A DNA stretch of 64,000 nucleotides from the IMG/VR virus record IMGVR_UViG_3300034072_000926, positions 167,621 through 231,620 of that record, one strand, 5' to 3'. Under the pieces are notes generated by a model. The model made no database searches and was not told where the DNA came from. It saw nothing but the letters and a program-made list of their open reading frames with translations. The stretch comes from a virus. Shown piece by piece: positions 49,801 through 58,734 of the stretch; positions within the stretch are counted from its first letter, which is position 1; the number at the start of each line of letters is the position of its first letter. The translations under genes and the position numbers were made by a program.

Positions 49801-50259
49801 TCACTCCACTGCGCTGAAACGCTTGGTGATCGCATGTGCCTGTTCGCGGGTGCAAGGGCCAATACCCAGGGCAGTCACGATGGGCGAACCATCGAACTCG
49901 GTGCCGGGGATAATGTGGTTCTTGTCCACGATGAGGGAAGTGATCAGACCAGCAGCCTGGGCCTCTTCGTAAGCGCGCTGGATAGCGGCTTCGTTCTTGG
50001 CCTTGAGGATGACTTGGGTGCCGATGAAGTCCGGGCCCTGGTAAACACGCAGGAGTTCCGGTTCGCGCCGACTAGCGAGAAGCACACAATTCTTGGCCGC
50101 ATGACAAGCCTGGCTTGCCAGCTTACCGGGCTTCATAGCCAGGTCGCCTCGAATGATGCTATAGATGCGAAGCTTTTCAGAGGCAGCTTCGAAGGCCTCG
50201 TCGTCATTATCCGCTTCGTAGCGAGCAATGGCTTCCTACAAGAACGAGTTCGTCAGCAT
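49801..50259 (-). CDS. pth2: Peptidyl-tRNA hydrolase 2, with in-frame amber codon at position 8
   Basis: The Pth2 fold is clear: YSIIRGDLAMKPGKLASQAC followed by HAA, then DFIGTQVILKAKN, GLITSLIVD and GSPIVTALGIGP. Pth2 frees tRNA from peptidyl-tRNA lost by ribosomes. The only good start, ATG 50259 behind AAGGA, reads MLTNSFL, then TAG (50238-50236), then EAIARYEADNDDEAFEAASE and on in frame into the enzyme. Reading TAG as an amino acid gives 152 residues. Starting at the next ATG (50136) would remove the conserved beta strand and half of the K-x-x-A-Q-x-x-H-A region lead-in. A less likely alternative is an ATT start right after the TAG with AGGA four bases upstream. An amber-reading tRNA is encoded at 54590-54662. 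It has its own promoter at 50300-50327. Confidence 0.8.
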
Positions 50260-52722: not shown

Positions 52723-53232
52723 TTACTGGTTGAGAATGAAGATGAAGGAAACAACTGCCATCATAACACCGCCCCAGAAGAATGGGCTCTTCAGCAGCGC
52801 GGGCTTGATATCTGGGATAGCGATGGGTTCTGGTTCCGGCCTCGGTTCCCGAACATTTCTGAGCCCGAGGAAGGCTTGCCATTCCCATTCCGAAGAAGGC
52901 CGGTCATTGTTGTTCGTACTAGCCGCACCAGCATAGCCGATATACAGGCCTTCGCTGGCCGCCCATGTCCTCAGCTCTTCCCATACGGGCTGATATGCAG
53001 ATTTCTCATCTTCCATATCCCATCGAGAACCATAGCAGGGCATTTCGAAGAGATGCCGGATAGCCTTTGGGGCAGTCACTGGCGCATATTCACTGCCGTG
53101 CTTTACTGCCTCTTGTAGGGCTTCGAGCAAGGTGGACTTTACGAAGAACCGAAGGAGGTCTGCATTCTCCTTCAGTTCATTATGGATGGCTTCGCGCTTG
53201 GTCTTGCGAAGATCATCTGCGAGCGTTGCCAT
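52723..53232 (-). CDS. Tail-anchored membrane protein of unknown function
   Basis: A 169-residue protein with a soluble N-terminal helical domain (residues 1-55), a Trp-rich region (SSEWEWQAFLGLR), a Pro/Glu linker (EPRPEPEPIAIPDIKP) and one C-terminal membrane segment (FFWGGVMMAVVSFIFIL, about 150-167). It starts with TAATG overlap on the antiporter stop, so it probably works with that transporter at the inner membrane. Not recognised as a family. Confidence 0.65.
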   Translation of the reverse strand: MATLADDLRKTKREAIHNELKENADLLRFFVKSTLLEALQEAVKHGSEYAPVTAPKAIRHLFEMPCYGSRWDMEDEKSAYQPVWEELRTWAASEGLYIGYAGAASTNNNDRPSSEWEWQAFLGLRNVREPRPEPEPIAIPDIKPALLKSPFFWGGVMMAVVSFIFILNQ

Positions 53233-54551
53233 TAGTCTTCAATCCTCAAGTGATCTGCCTTGTATTCAGCTTCGAAGACATCCTTATAGGTTTTGATGAT
53301 TAGAATCAATACCGCAGGATACAGGAAGGTGGACAGAAGGACATTGCCGACCACAATAGCCTCGAAGAGTTCCAGGTATTCAAAGTCCCTGGGAATCATA
53401 TGCAACATGAGCAGCGAGAACGCACCCTTCACACCGGCAGCAGTCAATACCTTCCACCAATGCAGCGGGATGGTCACAACTTTATCAGTCCGCTGACTCA
53501 TCCAAGCAAACCCGCCCAACATGACCATTCGAATGATCGTCGAACCTACGAATACTGCCATGATCTCGCCCCAATACTTCACAAGCAACTGGAGATTGAT
53601 CAGATTAGCCATCGTAATGAACAAGACCGTCGAGGCAATGATTGCAATGAACTGGATGTTACCGATGACGACTTGATAGGCATAGGAATCCTTGATCATG
53701 TTGTCGAAACGAGGAATGATCTTCCCAATGGTCCGACCACGTTCGCCAGTGTCCTCAACAGCATTCTCGAGTTCACTCGATAGTCGCTTGGTGATGATAT
53801 TGTTGGCGAAGAGGATCGCAACGATAACAGCAAAGATGCCAGAAGCATGATAGTGTTCAGCAATCGCGAACGCGCCTAGGGCCATGAGCAGGACAATCAT
53901 CGTCTCAGTCATTGCATCGTGGATATAACGCAGAGCAATAAGACCCACGTAACCAACGACCAGACCAATGCCAAGTGCGCCGACGACCATCTTGACCGCG
54001 TAGAGGGTGGGGTTATCCGCTACATGCTCGGGGCCATGACCCATATAGACTAGCGCGATACTGAATACAATCAGGGCACTTGCGTCGTTGAACAAACTCT
54101 CACCCTCTGCGAGGACTTTGAGATTGTGAGGCAAATGCGACCGACCGAACACCGCAGAGACCGAAACTGGATCCGTTGCAAGGATCATACAGAACAATGC
54201 TGCGACCGCCGGGGCCGTCAGATGGTAGTCAGGTAGAATGTGTCGATTGACCATGATTGCAAGGCCGACCGAAAGGACGATCATAATGCCTGCAATGTAG
54301 AACAAGCTTAGGGCATTGCGCTTGAGCTCATCCCAGCGGAGCATCATAGCGTCAACGCATATCAGGATGGGAAGCATGAGGAAGACCAGATGGTCAAATG
54401 TTTGATCACTAATCTCGATGGGACGATGCCCGGAAAGTGAAACCAGAACCACCGAGGCGATAATTGTTATCGGGGTGGGAACGCCTAGCTTTTGCTGGAC
54501 GAAAAGAGCCGTAGCGGCTATGAGCACAACAAAGATAGCTAGTTCTAGCAT
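53232..54551 (-). CDS. Na+/H+ antiporter, CPA1 (NhaP/NHE) family
   Basis: A 439-residue polytopic inner-membrane protein with about 12 hydrophobic segments. The CPA1 hallmarks are present: ATDPVSVSAV at about 125-134 and EGESLFNDASALIVF at about 149-163 with the Asn155-Asp156 pair that carries ions, plus a conserved Arg-bearing region later (VGSTIIRMVMLGG). It should exchange Na+ (or K+) for protons. Full length, with no disruption. The gene starts 38 bases after the 3' end of the amber tRNA, so both may lie on one transcript. Such a transporter is not part of any phage core gene set I know. Confidence 0.9.
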   Translation of the reverse strand: MLELAIFVVLIAATALFVQQKLGVPTPITIIASVVLVSLSGHRPIEISDQTFDHLVFLMLPILICVDAMMLRWDELKRNALSLFYIAGIMIVLSVGLAIMVNRHILPDYHLTAPAVAALFCMILATDPVSVSAVFGRSHLPHNLKVLAEGESLFNDASALIVFSIALVYMGHGPEHVADNPTLYAVKMVVGALGIGLVVGYVGLIALRYIHDAMTETMIVLLMALGAFAIAEHYHASGIFAVIVAILFANNIITKRLSSELENAVEDTGERGRTIGKIIPRFDNMIKDSYAYQVVIGNIQFIAIIASTVLFITMANLINLQLLVKYWGEIMAVFVGSTIIRMVMLGGFAWMSQRTDKVVTIPLHWWKVLTAAGVKGAFSLLMLHMIPRDFEYLELFEAIVVGNVLLSTFLYPAVLILIIKTYKDVFEAEYKADHLRIED

Positions 54552-55132: not shown

Positions 55133-55194
55133 AAGAATACCTCCTACACCACTCTCGTAGCATAGGAGGTTTCTTTGTCAACCAGTATTAGCGA

Positions 55195-55788
55195 TTAGTT
55201 GAGTTCGCTATACTGGCTGGCCATCTTGTCCGACATTGCCTGGAGCATGCCGTGGATGCCCTTGTAGATGGTCGTGAACACACGGTAGAGGAAATCACCG
55301 AAGAACGTGCCGATGATCGACCAGGGCCAGAACACCATCCAGGTCGTCACGCGACCCTTGTTGTAGCGCACCATACGAGTGTTGTTGATGTCCAGGTAAG
55401 ACACATCACGACGCTTGTTGAATTCATCCCGCACCGCCGGATCGGCGGGGAAATCATTCAGTCCCTTTTCCTTCAAGAAGGCCGAACGCAGTTCGTCATA
55501 CTTCTCGAACAGTGCCGGCAGGAAGAACGCACGCCATTTGACGATAGCCCAGAGGCCGGCGATCACGAAATAGCCGATGACTCCGTAGAGGACGTAGATC
55601 GGATGTTCCTTGACCGTTGCAATGATCGGCGTAGTCGTGAAGGCCAGGATGACACCGATTCCGACCAGCGAGGTCAGAATTGCATAGCCGGTCTTTTCCT
55701 GACTAACCTGCCCGGCGAGGACCAGGGTGAGCAGCGCGATGAGGCTCCAGAACAGGACGCCTCCAAATTCAATAAAACTATAAATCAT
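55195..55788 (-). CDS. Polytopic membrane protein of unknown function
   Basis: A 197-residue protein with three N-terminal membrane segments (about 9-26, 33-52, 66-86) and a possible fourth near 150-170 (WMVFWPWSIIGTFFGDFLYR), joined by a charged cytoplasmic region (SAFLKEKGLNDFPADPAVRD). It starts at the base adjacent to the cysS stop with AGGAAA inside the cysS end, so it is translated from the cysS transcript. It precedes the K+ channel gene. Not recognised; a role in envelope or ion physiology is suggested only by its neighbours. Confidence 0.7.
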   Translation of the reverse strand: MIYSFIEFGGVLFWSLIALLTLVLAGQVSQEKTGYAILTSLVGIGVILAFTTTPIIATVKEHPIYVLYGVIGYFVIAGLWAIVKWRAFFLPALFEKYDELRSAFLKEKGLNDFPADPAVRDEFNKRRDVSYLDINNTRMVRYNKGRVTTWMVFWPWSIIGTFFGDFLYRVFTTIYKGIHGMLQAMSDKMASQYSELN

Positions 55789-57138
55789 TTAGAGTTTCCT
55801 CCATTCGGTGCCGTGAACGCCATCGGCAAGCGCGATTCCTGCATCAGTAAGCTGCTGACGAATCTGATCCGCTCTCTCGTAATCTCGATTCGCACGAGCA
55901 GCTTGACGTGCCGCTATTAGCGACTCTACCCACACCTTGTCAACACCAAAGGTGCGCCACTGGTGAGGAGTTTGGTTAAAGAAACCAAGGAACTGAGCAC
56001 ATTTGATCAGTTGAGCCTTAGATTTTGCCTTTTCATTTCCACTTTCCAACGCATCAGCGAGTTCGTGGAGAATGGCAATAGCTTTGGTGGTATTCAGATC
56101 ATGCTGGAGAGCATTCAGGAAATTCTCCGGCAGATCACAATCTTCGGCATAATTGACATCATCGTGCCGGTAGATCGTCTCATATAGACGATCCAACGAC
56201 TTATAGGCCACATCCAGTTTCGACAATGTGAAGTCCATCGGACTACGATAATGTGACTGGAGGAAGAGATAACGAACTGCCTCGCCGGGATATTGCTCGA
56301 CCAGCTCATTGAGGTAGATTACATTGCCCCGACTCTTCGACATCTTTTCGCTGTCGACGGTCAAAAGACCATTATGGATCCAGTTATTGGCCAGTGGCTT
56401 ACCAATGGCGCAATGACTCTGAGCACATTCGGCTTCATGATGTGGAAAGCGAAGATCCTGTCCGCCGCCATGAATGTCGATGGTCTGTTCATTAAACTCA
56501 GCAGCAATCATAGCTGAGCATTCAATATGCCAACCCGGTCGACCTTGACCCCAAGGACTATTCCACCAAGGCTCGCCCTCTTTTGCGGGCTTCCAGAGAA
56601 TGAAGTCCCTTGGATCCTTTTTCTTTGGATCAACTTCGACTCGCGAACCACTTTCAAGGCTCTTGTGATTAGCAAGTCCAGGATGCGGGTTACTGGGAAC
56701 ATGGAAGAATACCTCACCCTTGCGGACATACGCATACTTCTGTTCAACGAGACGCTTAATTAGCGTCAGCATCCCTCTAATGTTCTCTGTGGCTTTAGGC
56801 TCTACCGTTGGAGCCAAGCAATTGAGGGCAGCAAGGTCAGCGTGATATGCCTCGAGAGCCGGCTCGGTTATGGCCGAGATATCGACACCTTGCTCAATCG
56901 AAGCGTTGATGATCTTGTCATCAATATCCGTGACATTACGAGCATATCTGACTGCATTTTCACCATATGTATAGCGGAGCAATCGGAAGAGCTGGTCGAA
57001 TACGATAGCGGGGCGAGCATTGCCAATGTGGGCCGGGCCATAAACGGTTGGTCCACAGACATACATGCTCACGTGATTTGGATCGAGCGGTGTGAACTCT
57101 CGCAGAGAACGCGACTGACTATCATAGAGTTTAATCAT
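55789..57138 (-). CDS. cysS: Cysteinyl-tRNA synthetase
   Basis: A 449-residue complete class I CysRS. It has the Zn ligand Cys28 and signature HIGN (37-40) in CGPTVYGPAHIGNARPAI. Further Zn-site residues lie in WHIECSAM and GGGQDLRFPHHEAECAQSHC, and KMSKSRGN at about 264-271. Length equals bacterial CysRS (461). It makes Cys-tRNACys; why a phage carries it is unknown. No tRNACys is visible in the window, and the amber tRNA has G73 rather than the U73 that CysRS needs. A TTGACA/TAAGCT promoter sets +1 exactly on the ATG, with no Shine-Dalgarno. Confidence 0.96.
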   Translation of the reverse strand: MIKLYDSQSRSLREFTPLDPNHVSMYVCGPTVYGPAHIGNARPAIVFDQLFRLLRYTYGENAVRYARNVTDIDDKIINASIEQGVDISAITEPALEAYHADLAALNCLAPTVEPKATENIRGMLTLIKRLVEQKYAYVRKGEVFFHVPSNPHPGLANHKSLESGSRVEVDPKKKDPRDFILWKPAKEGEPWWNSPWGQGRPGWHIECSAMIAAEFNEQTIDIHGGGQDLRFPHHEAECAQSHCAIGKPLANNWIHNGLLTVDSEKMSKSRGNVIYLNELVEQYPGEAVRYLFLQSHYRSPMDFTLSKLDVAYKSLDRLYETIYRHDDVNYAEDCDLPENFLNALQHDLNTTKAIAILHELADALESGNEKAKSKAQLIKCAQFLGFFNQTPHQWRTFGVDKVWVESLIAARQAARANRDYERADQIRQQLTDAGIALADGVHGTEWRKL

Positions 57139-57573: not shown

Positions 57574-57911
57574 CGTCCACCCATCTGAAGTTTGAACATC
57601 AATGCACTATTGGGATCAGTGAATCGAACCCGAATAATGCAAGGATCTTCTTTAAGAAAAGAATAGCTTTTTGCGGGATAGACATCAAAGATGTATGATC
57701 CCTTTGCATTGTCTTTCAGCCACTCCTCTAGATCTTCGCCATTTGCATTGAAGAAGCTGCACTCGTTATTCCGACGTCTTGGACAGAGAAAGGTCTTGAT
57801 TGTTCCTCCACGAACAATCGCTTCGGTCCAGGGCTTGAAGACTTTATGGAGACTGAACAAACGCAGATGCATCTTTGTGATATGAACGTCTGTGTAGCGT
57901 CTAAATATCAT
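57570..57911 (-). CDS. FKL-family small protein
   Basis: A 113-residue protein ending IIRVRFTDPNSALMFKLQMG. ATG 57911 overlaps the amber stop of the ATP-grasp gene; an internal ATG at 57872 (MHLRLFSL) is an alternative. The middle has Cys pairs separated by Arg (CPRRRNNEC), not a clear zinc motif. Coupled to the next FKL gene by ATGA. Confidence 0.55.
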   Translation of the reverse strand: MIFRRYTDVHITKMHLRLFSLHKVFKPWTEAIVRGGTIKTFLCPRRRNNECSFFNANGEDLEEWLKDNAKGSYIFDVYPAKSYSFLKEDPCIIRVRFTDPNSALMFKLQMGGR

Positions 57912-58734
57912 CCCCGAGATATTCCTTCAATGCAGCGGCACTGATTCCCTTGACAACCTTCTCCAGATCACAAGCGTAGAGACCAGCACAACTGAAACCA
58001 TTCAGTTCGACCAGTTTAGCACCATTATCCGTAAGAGCAACATCACAGGTGTAGGCAATGTCAACTTGCCAAGGATGTTCTGCCACCTTCTGTGCTAGTT
58101 CTTCACATTCGGGGAGCCAATCACGACGAATGTCTAGTTTTCCATCCCAGCGATATTCAGAACCGGCAATGATCTTGCCATCTGCGATTACAAAACGAAA
58201 CTCGCCCTGGATATTCCTCAACGGAGCCATGAAGCAAAGGGTGTCGTTCATAACACCGCTAGTCTGTTCGAGTGTAGAGATGTCATGGTCCACATTCTCG
58301 GACACCATACGCTGTCCGGCAAATGTCTTGTAACCACTATTGGGGCGAACGAACACCCCATTTGGACTCTGGTGGATTATGAAATCTTTGACACGTTCTT
58401 TGAACATGGCCCAGGTCAAGAACTGTCCATCCGAATTCATGAACCAATCGAGTGGCAGATTGCTCATGTAGGAAGTAACCTGCGTGTTCAGGTTTACCCC
58501 GAGAGGACCAGGCTGTATCTTTGGAGACTGGACAGCTTTTACGAATTGATGAGAGCCATACATGACCACACACTTATTCTCAAGACCAGGTGGTTCACTA
58601 TAGGTGCCATCGTCGTGACGATCGACAAAGATCACTTCGTGCCCAGCCGCCTGTGCATAGTGATCGATGGTATGGCGGTCATACGAGAGTTTCTCGAGAA
58701 TGCCGCGGTCTAAGAGCCAGATAACAGGAGCCAT
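57901..58734 (-). CDS. ATP-grasp domain protein
   Basis: A 277-residue protein with the ATP-grasp arrangement. GVFVRPNSGYKTFAGQ is the nucleotide-binding loop region, GEFRFVIADGKIIAGSEYRW the central sheet, and VDIAYTCDVALTDNGAKLVE with LNGFSCAGLY the metal-binding end (Glu-x-Asn). This group ligates a carboxylate to an amine or thiol; its substrate is unknown. It ends in TAG (57903-57901). Amber readthrough would add 19 residues, ending TLHRRSYHKDASAFVQSP after the inserted residue. A TTGACA/TAGATA promoter puts +1 on the ATG, within a 12-bp inverted repeat. Confidence 0.8.
   Translation of the reverse strand: MAPVIWLLDRGILEKLSYDRHTIDHYAQAAGHEVIFVDRHDDGTYSEPPGLENKCVVMYGSHQFVKAVQSPKIQPGPLGVNLNTQVTSYMSNLPLDWFMNSDGQFLTWAMFKERVKDFIIHQSPNGVFVRPNSGYKTFAGQRMVSENVDHDISTLEQTSGVMNDTLCFMAPLRNIQGEFRFVIADGKIIAGSEYRWDGKLDIRRDWLPECEELAQKVAEHPWQVDIAYTCDVALTDNGAKLVELNGFSCAGLYACDLEKVVKGISAAALKEYLGDDI

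Follow-up and report, generated by a model that had tools for sequence, protein, structure and literature searches.

A complete CPA1-type cation:proton antiporter gene beside an amber tRNA in a T4-like megaphage genome

Phage-encoded secondary ion transporters have scarcely been studied, and a full-length Na+/H+ antiporter gene on a virus contig raises the questions of whether it encodes a working transporter and whether it belongs to a set of genes with which a phage controls the ions of the infected cell. A sequence-only reading of the window, the 64,000-nucleotide stretch of DNA analysed here, had suggested a working transporter. It described an antiporter that, with a K+ channel, a polytopic membrane protein and a tail-anchored protein, makes up a cluster of membrane and ion genes broken by nothing but an amber tRNA, and considered that control of cytoplasmic pH and K+/Na+ by a phage during infection would be new. 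The neighbouring genes are all present where that reading placed them (Table 1).

The window is part of a 465,259-base virus contig that carries T4-like tail, baseplate, RNA ligase and polynucleotide-kinase-like genes. Judged by the baseplate wedge protein the nearest isolates are Agrobacterium phage Atu_ph07 and Sinorhizobium phage Phosso, and the genome is that of a T4-like megaphage related to these two. Since they are its nearest isolates, we infer that the host is likely to be rhizobial or otherwise alphaproteobacterial. A megablast search of the region against phages gave no match. A scan of IMG/VR with the class II synthetase of the region identified five closer relatives (L098–L102, here called the siblings) and two distant ones (L103 and L104).

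Table 1. Positions in the window of the antiporter gene and of the features around it.
Feature	Position	Strand	Basis and remarks
Class II aminoacyl-tRNA synthetase-like core, 266 aa	51914..52714	(-)	PF00587 3e-9; directly downstream of insertion
169-aa protein with one C-terminal TM segment	52723..53232	(-)	Hydrophobic segment 149-169 of 169
CPA1/NhaP-type cation:proton antiporter, intact	53232..54551	(-)	PF00999, motifs, fold model
tRNA with CUA (amber) anticodon	54589..54662	(-)	ARAGORN; same place in five siblings and Phosso
2-TM K+ channel with TVGYGD filter, 152 aa	54674..55132	(-)	PF07885 1.9e-12; PHROG 14690 3.7e-29
14-bp hairpin taking in GGAGG of the K+ channel start	55139..55170	(-)	
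197-aa membrane protein	55195..55788	(-)	Three hydrophobic segments by hydropathy
Cysteinyl-tRNA synthetase CysS	55789..57138	(-)	TIGR00435 467 bits vs 340 cut-off

The antiporter gene is a complete and intact CPA1 gene of host type. Its open reading frame begins with ATG, ends with TAA and encodes 439 amino acids; at the base composition of the window the chance of 439 stop-free codons is approximately 3e-10 per frame. In a Pfam profile search the protein matches PF00999 with an E value of 3.8e-26 and a score of 92.3 bits (cut-off 26.2), and the alignment takes in residues 10–415 and positions 2–369 of the 375 in the profile. The full length described by the sequence-only reading is borne out by this near-complete coverage, as are the CPA1 hallmarks by the score and by intact TD, ES and ND motifs. 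No other PF00999 match occurs in the 465,259-base record. The NCBIfam equivalog TIGR00831 (a_cpa1) stays below its cut-off, with 103.5 bits against 279.6 over the N-terminal half only. The GC3 of the gene is 0.59 against a mean of 0.49, and with neighbours that span 0.49 to 0.74 this gives no clear signal of a foreign base composition.

In the archaeal antiporters PaNhaP and MjNhaP1 the key residues are a TD pair in an unwound helix and ES and ND pairs in the ion site. The phage protein has the same residues, with TD in the unwound helix, an ion pair that is ND and not DD as in CPA2, and ES before it. T126, D127, E151, S152, N155, D156, R341, G373 and G376 are invariant across 24 aligned sequences. 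Two positions depart from the usual pattern: K375 replaces the arginine that most CPA1 proteins carry in the G-x-R-G motif of the second unwound helix, and D67 lies in TM3 where many CPA1 proteins have a glutamate. These substitutions could mean a changed ion coupling, though the nearest cellular clade has both; at the 375 site the more distant L024 has a glutamine.

The predicted structure of the antiporter is a confident one (pLDDT 84.7, pTM 0.84), and its helices break at 125–127 and 372–376, as crossed unwound helices would give. Profile searches of the PDB place the protein with plant SOS1, sperm SLC9C1, NHE1 and the archaeal NhaP proteins, and Foldseek TM-scores of the model against such antiporters, by query length, are about 0.64–0.75. 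In VIA-align the closest correspondence is to Arabidopsis SOS1 (Z 40.1 over 402 residues, rmsd 2.8), with Z values of 35–38.5 for NHE1, PaNhaP and MjNhaP1. All four resemble the phage protein in fold (Z 35–40), in the breaks of the unwound helices and in the ND motif, but they share only 16–20% identity with it and carry an arginine in TM11 in place of its lysine, and NHE1 and SOS1 have a large C-terminal regulatory domain that it lacks. A fold search of BFVD with the model returned nothing at E 1e-3. Intact gene, motifs, fold and the residue constraint described below together predict a protein that is probably a working transporter, as the sequence-only reading had suggested.

The nearest relatives of the antiporter are cellular proteins of Campylobacterota and Zetaproteobacteria, with 37–41% identity. 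The CPA1 clade to which these belong (for example L009, L010, L012 and L002, a Sulfurovum mangrovi plasmid) matches over the full length at 29–41% identity and has in common with the phage protein the TD, ES and ND motifs and the lysine in TM11. In the tree the phage protein is placed in this branch, away from the other viral antiporters, with 100/100 support. The clade is otherwise cellular, whereas the phage protein, which sits on a long branch (length 1.73), is the sole viral member found in it.

Scans of IMG/VR with the single protein or with a two-sequence query found no antiporter relative, while a scan with the 24-sequence alignment found eight loci. One complete phage genome, that of the plaque-forming Pseudomonas phage isolate vB_PpS_SYP (OQ183418), carries such a gene as gene 178, which is annotated as hypothetical and encodes a 418-aa protein matching PF00999 at 3.8e-57. 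IMG/VR adds five further copies of full length (G008–G012), in records that range from 38 to 457 kb and of which four also have a terminase match; in G008 the gene comes after tail-fibre genes. The protein of G010 is nearly identical to that of SYP, and the six viral proteins group together on the tree. Like the window protein they are intact, match PF00999 and come from phage or virus records, but they form a separate branch with about 20–30% identity to it, stand in other gene neighbourhoods and, in SYP, have an arginine in the TM11 motif (GLRG) where the window protein has a lysine. Because the window protein branches with cellular proteins and apart from these six, the tree suggests, within a limited cellular sampling, that phages acquired antiporters on at least two separate occasions. 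Little was found in the literature on phage antiporters, but an estuarine survey reports viral sequences with genes for K+(Na+)/H+ antiporters (PMC13288924). With the isolate, the five IMG/VR records and the estuarine sequences, a phage antiporter is in itself no novelty; the gene of the window is a real accessory gene and not an unprecedented one. The presence of an antiporter gene in the plaque-forming isolate SYP makes the question of whether phages steer host ion balance testable at the bench. The SYP gene lies near a nicotinamide phosphoribosyltransferase gene (L003 17-5032).

Apart from SYP, the phage-record matches from tblastn whose neighbours were inspected lie among ordinary cellular genes. 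With open reading frames judged by eye, we rejected L004 as cellular contamination, since menaquinone-pathway-like genes adjoin, and L005 likewise for an adjoining PII-uridylyltransferase-like gene. The records MD-2021a and OR84xxxx were set aside as contamination from annotation, names and lengths only.

To ask whether the antiporter belongs to an ion cluster it is necessary to consider the genes that surround it in related phages. The order in Phosso matches that of the window: RNA ligase, ATP-grasp, CysS, membrane protein, tRNA-CUA, class II synthetase-like gene, phosphatase and peptidyl-tRNA hydrolase. This block, with its CUA tRNA, is kept in all five siblings. The class II synthetase-like core has 72–81% identity in the siblings and 63% in Phosso, and the corresponding values for CysS are 70% and 46%. 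The 197-aa membrane protein is present in every sibling at 48–61% identity, and on this comparison it is assigned to the old block and not to the insertion described below. The tRNA and the synthetase-like gene that follows the insertion, both kept in the five siblings and Phosso, are thus the conserved core of the region, and the description of the tRNA as the only interruption of a membrane and ion cluster is not supported.

The interval between the tRNA and the synthetase is where the phages differ. In the siblings it measures about 50 to 390 bases and holds nothing recognisable in L101, a short single-TM open reading frame in L098, and an open reading frame for a soluble protein in L099, L100 and L102. 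In the window the antiporter and the 169-aa protein occupy this interval. None of the records of the five siblings, Phosso and Atu_ph07, some of which are fragments, contains the antiporter. This absence and the differing contents of the slot therefore mark the pair, by comparison of the sequences, as an insertion private to this phage and seated in a variable slot. No direct repeats were found flanking it. An assembly chimera was considered and rejected, as both flanks of the insertion align with the siblings within one 465-kb contig; the overlap of the antiporter with the next gene also speaks against it.

The 169-aa protein is probably translationally coupled to the antiporter, because its start codon shares bases with the stop codon of the antiporter gene (TAATG). 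It has no relative in phages, in the sibling records searched or elsewhere in its own genome, and it matches no Pfam, PHROG or NCBIfam family. It may be a partner or regulator of the antiporter.

The K+ channel has a different history. It matches KvAP, KcsA and MthK, and it occurs in L098, L101 and L102 at 59–61% identity with its filter kept, each time without the antiporter, while L099, L100 and Phosso lack it. The phages of PHROG 14690 (Acinetobacter ME3, Aeromonas LAh and Pseudomonas phiPsa) carry channels of the same family but, unlike the window phage, show no antiporter match by tblastn. Conversely, five of the six other antiporter-bearing virus records have no such channel, and in the sixth it lies about 358 kb away; the retrieved sequence on either side of the antiporter genes in the cellular relatives showed no K+ filter motif. 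As far as these comparisons reach, there is no conserved ion cluster, and channel and antiporter do not form a unit elsewhere. Because the antiporter pair is private, the channel is shared independently and the 197-aa protein is old, the region is better understood as a translation block that transport genes entered, probably on separate occasions, to both sides of the tRNA. What appears to be an operon-like cluster dissolves on comparison with relatives.

It could still be that in this one phage the two genes act as a single module, in which K+ permeability and membrane potential would depend on the channel, the antiporter would exchange H+ with Na+ or K+, and the phage would in this way impose a new ionic state on the cell. 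They are adjacent and intact, on one strand and either side of the tRNA, and the ribosome site of the channel lies inside a hairpin that hints at timed expression. Such a hairpin is possibly a translational control; a comparable but weaker one occurs in L098 and none is obvious in L101 or L102. Consensus promoters are no more frequent in the region than in shuffles. A joint module is possible but not favoured, because channel and antiporter are not a unit elsewhere, each being found without the other in the sibling, virus and cellular records described above, and we regard it as unlikely.

The private nature of the insertion also raises the possibility that the antiporter is a passenger, an acquired and still intact gene that brings the phage no benefit and is heading for loss. 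Among the six related viruses the gene is at this place in one and absent elsewhere in their partly fragmentary records, as a passenger would be. Against this, antiporters recur in unrelated phages, and the sequence carries the marks of constraint. With one phage copy only, constraint was gauged against cellular relatives and not as dN/dS among phages. Of 137 positions that are invariant in the 11 nearest cellular relatives the phage protein keeps 94 (69%), with mostly conservative changes at the others, while more variable positions are kept at 20–31%. Such a contrast would not long be retained by a gene decaying unconstrained since its capture, though part of the long branch, and with it part of the constraint, may predate the capture. 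A passenger gene is improbable to a similar degree.

The explanation that we favour, with some confidence, is that the gene encodes a host-type cation/H+ antiporter, acquired horizontally, and that in the infected cell this protein would adjust the balance between Na+(K+) and H+. One phage lineage would have acquired it from a cellular clade now known mainly from Campylobacterota and Zetaproteobacteria, and it would have landed with its coupled single-TM partner in the variable slot between the amber-suppressor tRNA and the class II synthetase. The protein would most likely be made during infection and form a dimer in the inner membrane of the host. Working, like other CPA1 proteins, as an alternating-access elevator, it would there be expected to swap Na+ (or K+) against H+, with one cation bound at N155, D156 and S152 beside the unwound helices T126–D127 and G373–G376. 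Cytoplasmic pH and Na+/K+ could in this way be held steady in a cell under stress from infection or from a saline or alkaline habitat. A more ambitious form of the same idea is an ion-control kit of the phage's own in the inner membrane, in which the K+ channel and an antiporter with a private coupled subunit would reset pH and K+/Na+ during infection and the 169-aa protein would be the regulator; this seems to us quite improbable. Several abortive-infection effectors depolarise the membrane, and an antiporter that offsets such depolarisation or ion leak so that infection can finish would suit a private gain in a variable slot, as expected of an accessory gene under local selection, but no defence-related neighbour was identified and an antiporter that runs on the proton gradient would not on its own bring that gradient back after a collapse; we hold this to be the least probable of the explanations considered.

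Some further features of the translation block may be recorded. The class II synthetase-like core, apparently without an anticodon-binding domain, is among its most conserved genes. It lies near a CUA tRNA in the window phage, L098–L102 and Phosso (L006 11013-12169); in the distant L103 and L104 the gene stands among ordinary tRNAs. A tRNA-Pyl with a CUA anticodon has been reported in AP-J-162, a related Sinorhizobium phage (PMC11242549). Wholesale amber recoding was considered and set aside: there is no sign of it within the window, where reading TAG through extended no real gene and the conserved ATP-grasp gene ends in TAG. An R2K-type ATP-grasp ligase (57901-58734(-)) lies between RNA ligase and CysS in all relatives, and the PTH2 peptidyl-tRNA hydrolase (49801-50136(-)), about 90% identical across the siblings, is the most conserved protein of the block. 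For the 197-aa membrane protein the structural model was unusable (pLDDT 52, no fold assigned). The protein has distant homologues in LR756511 and in Rhizobium phages, and in the latter (L008 3953-4585) they adjoin tellurite-resistance-type genes (TerD-like, toxic anion resistance and DUF475).
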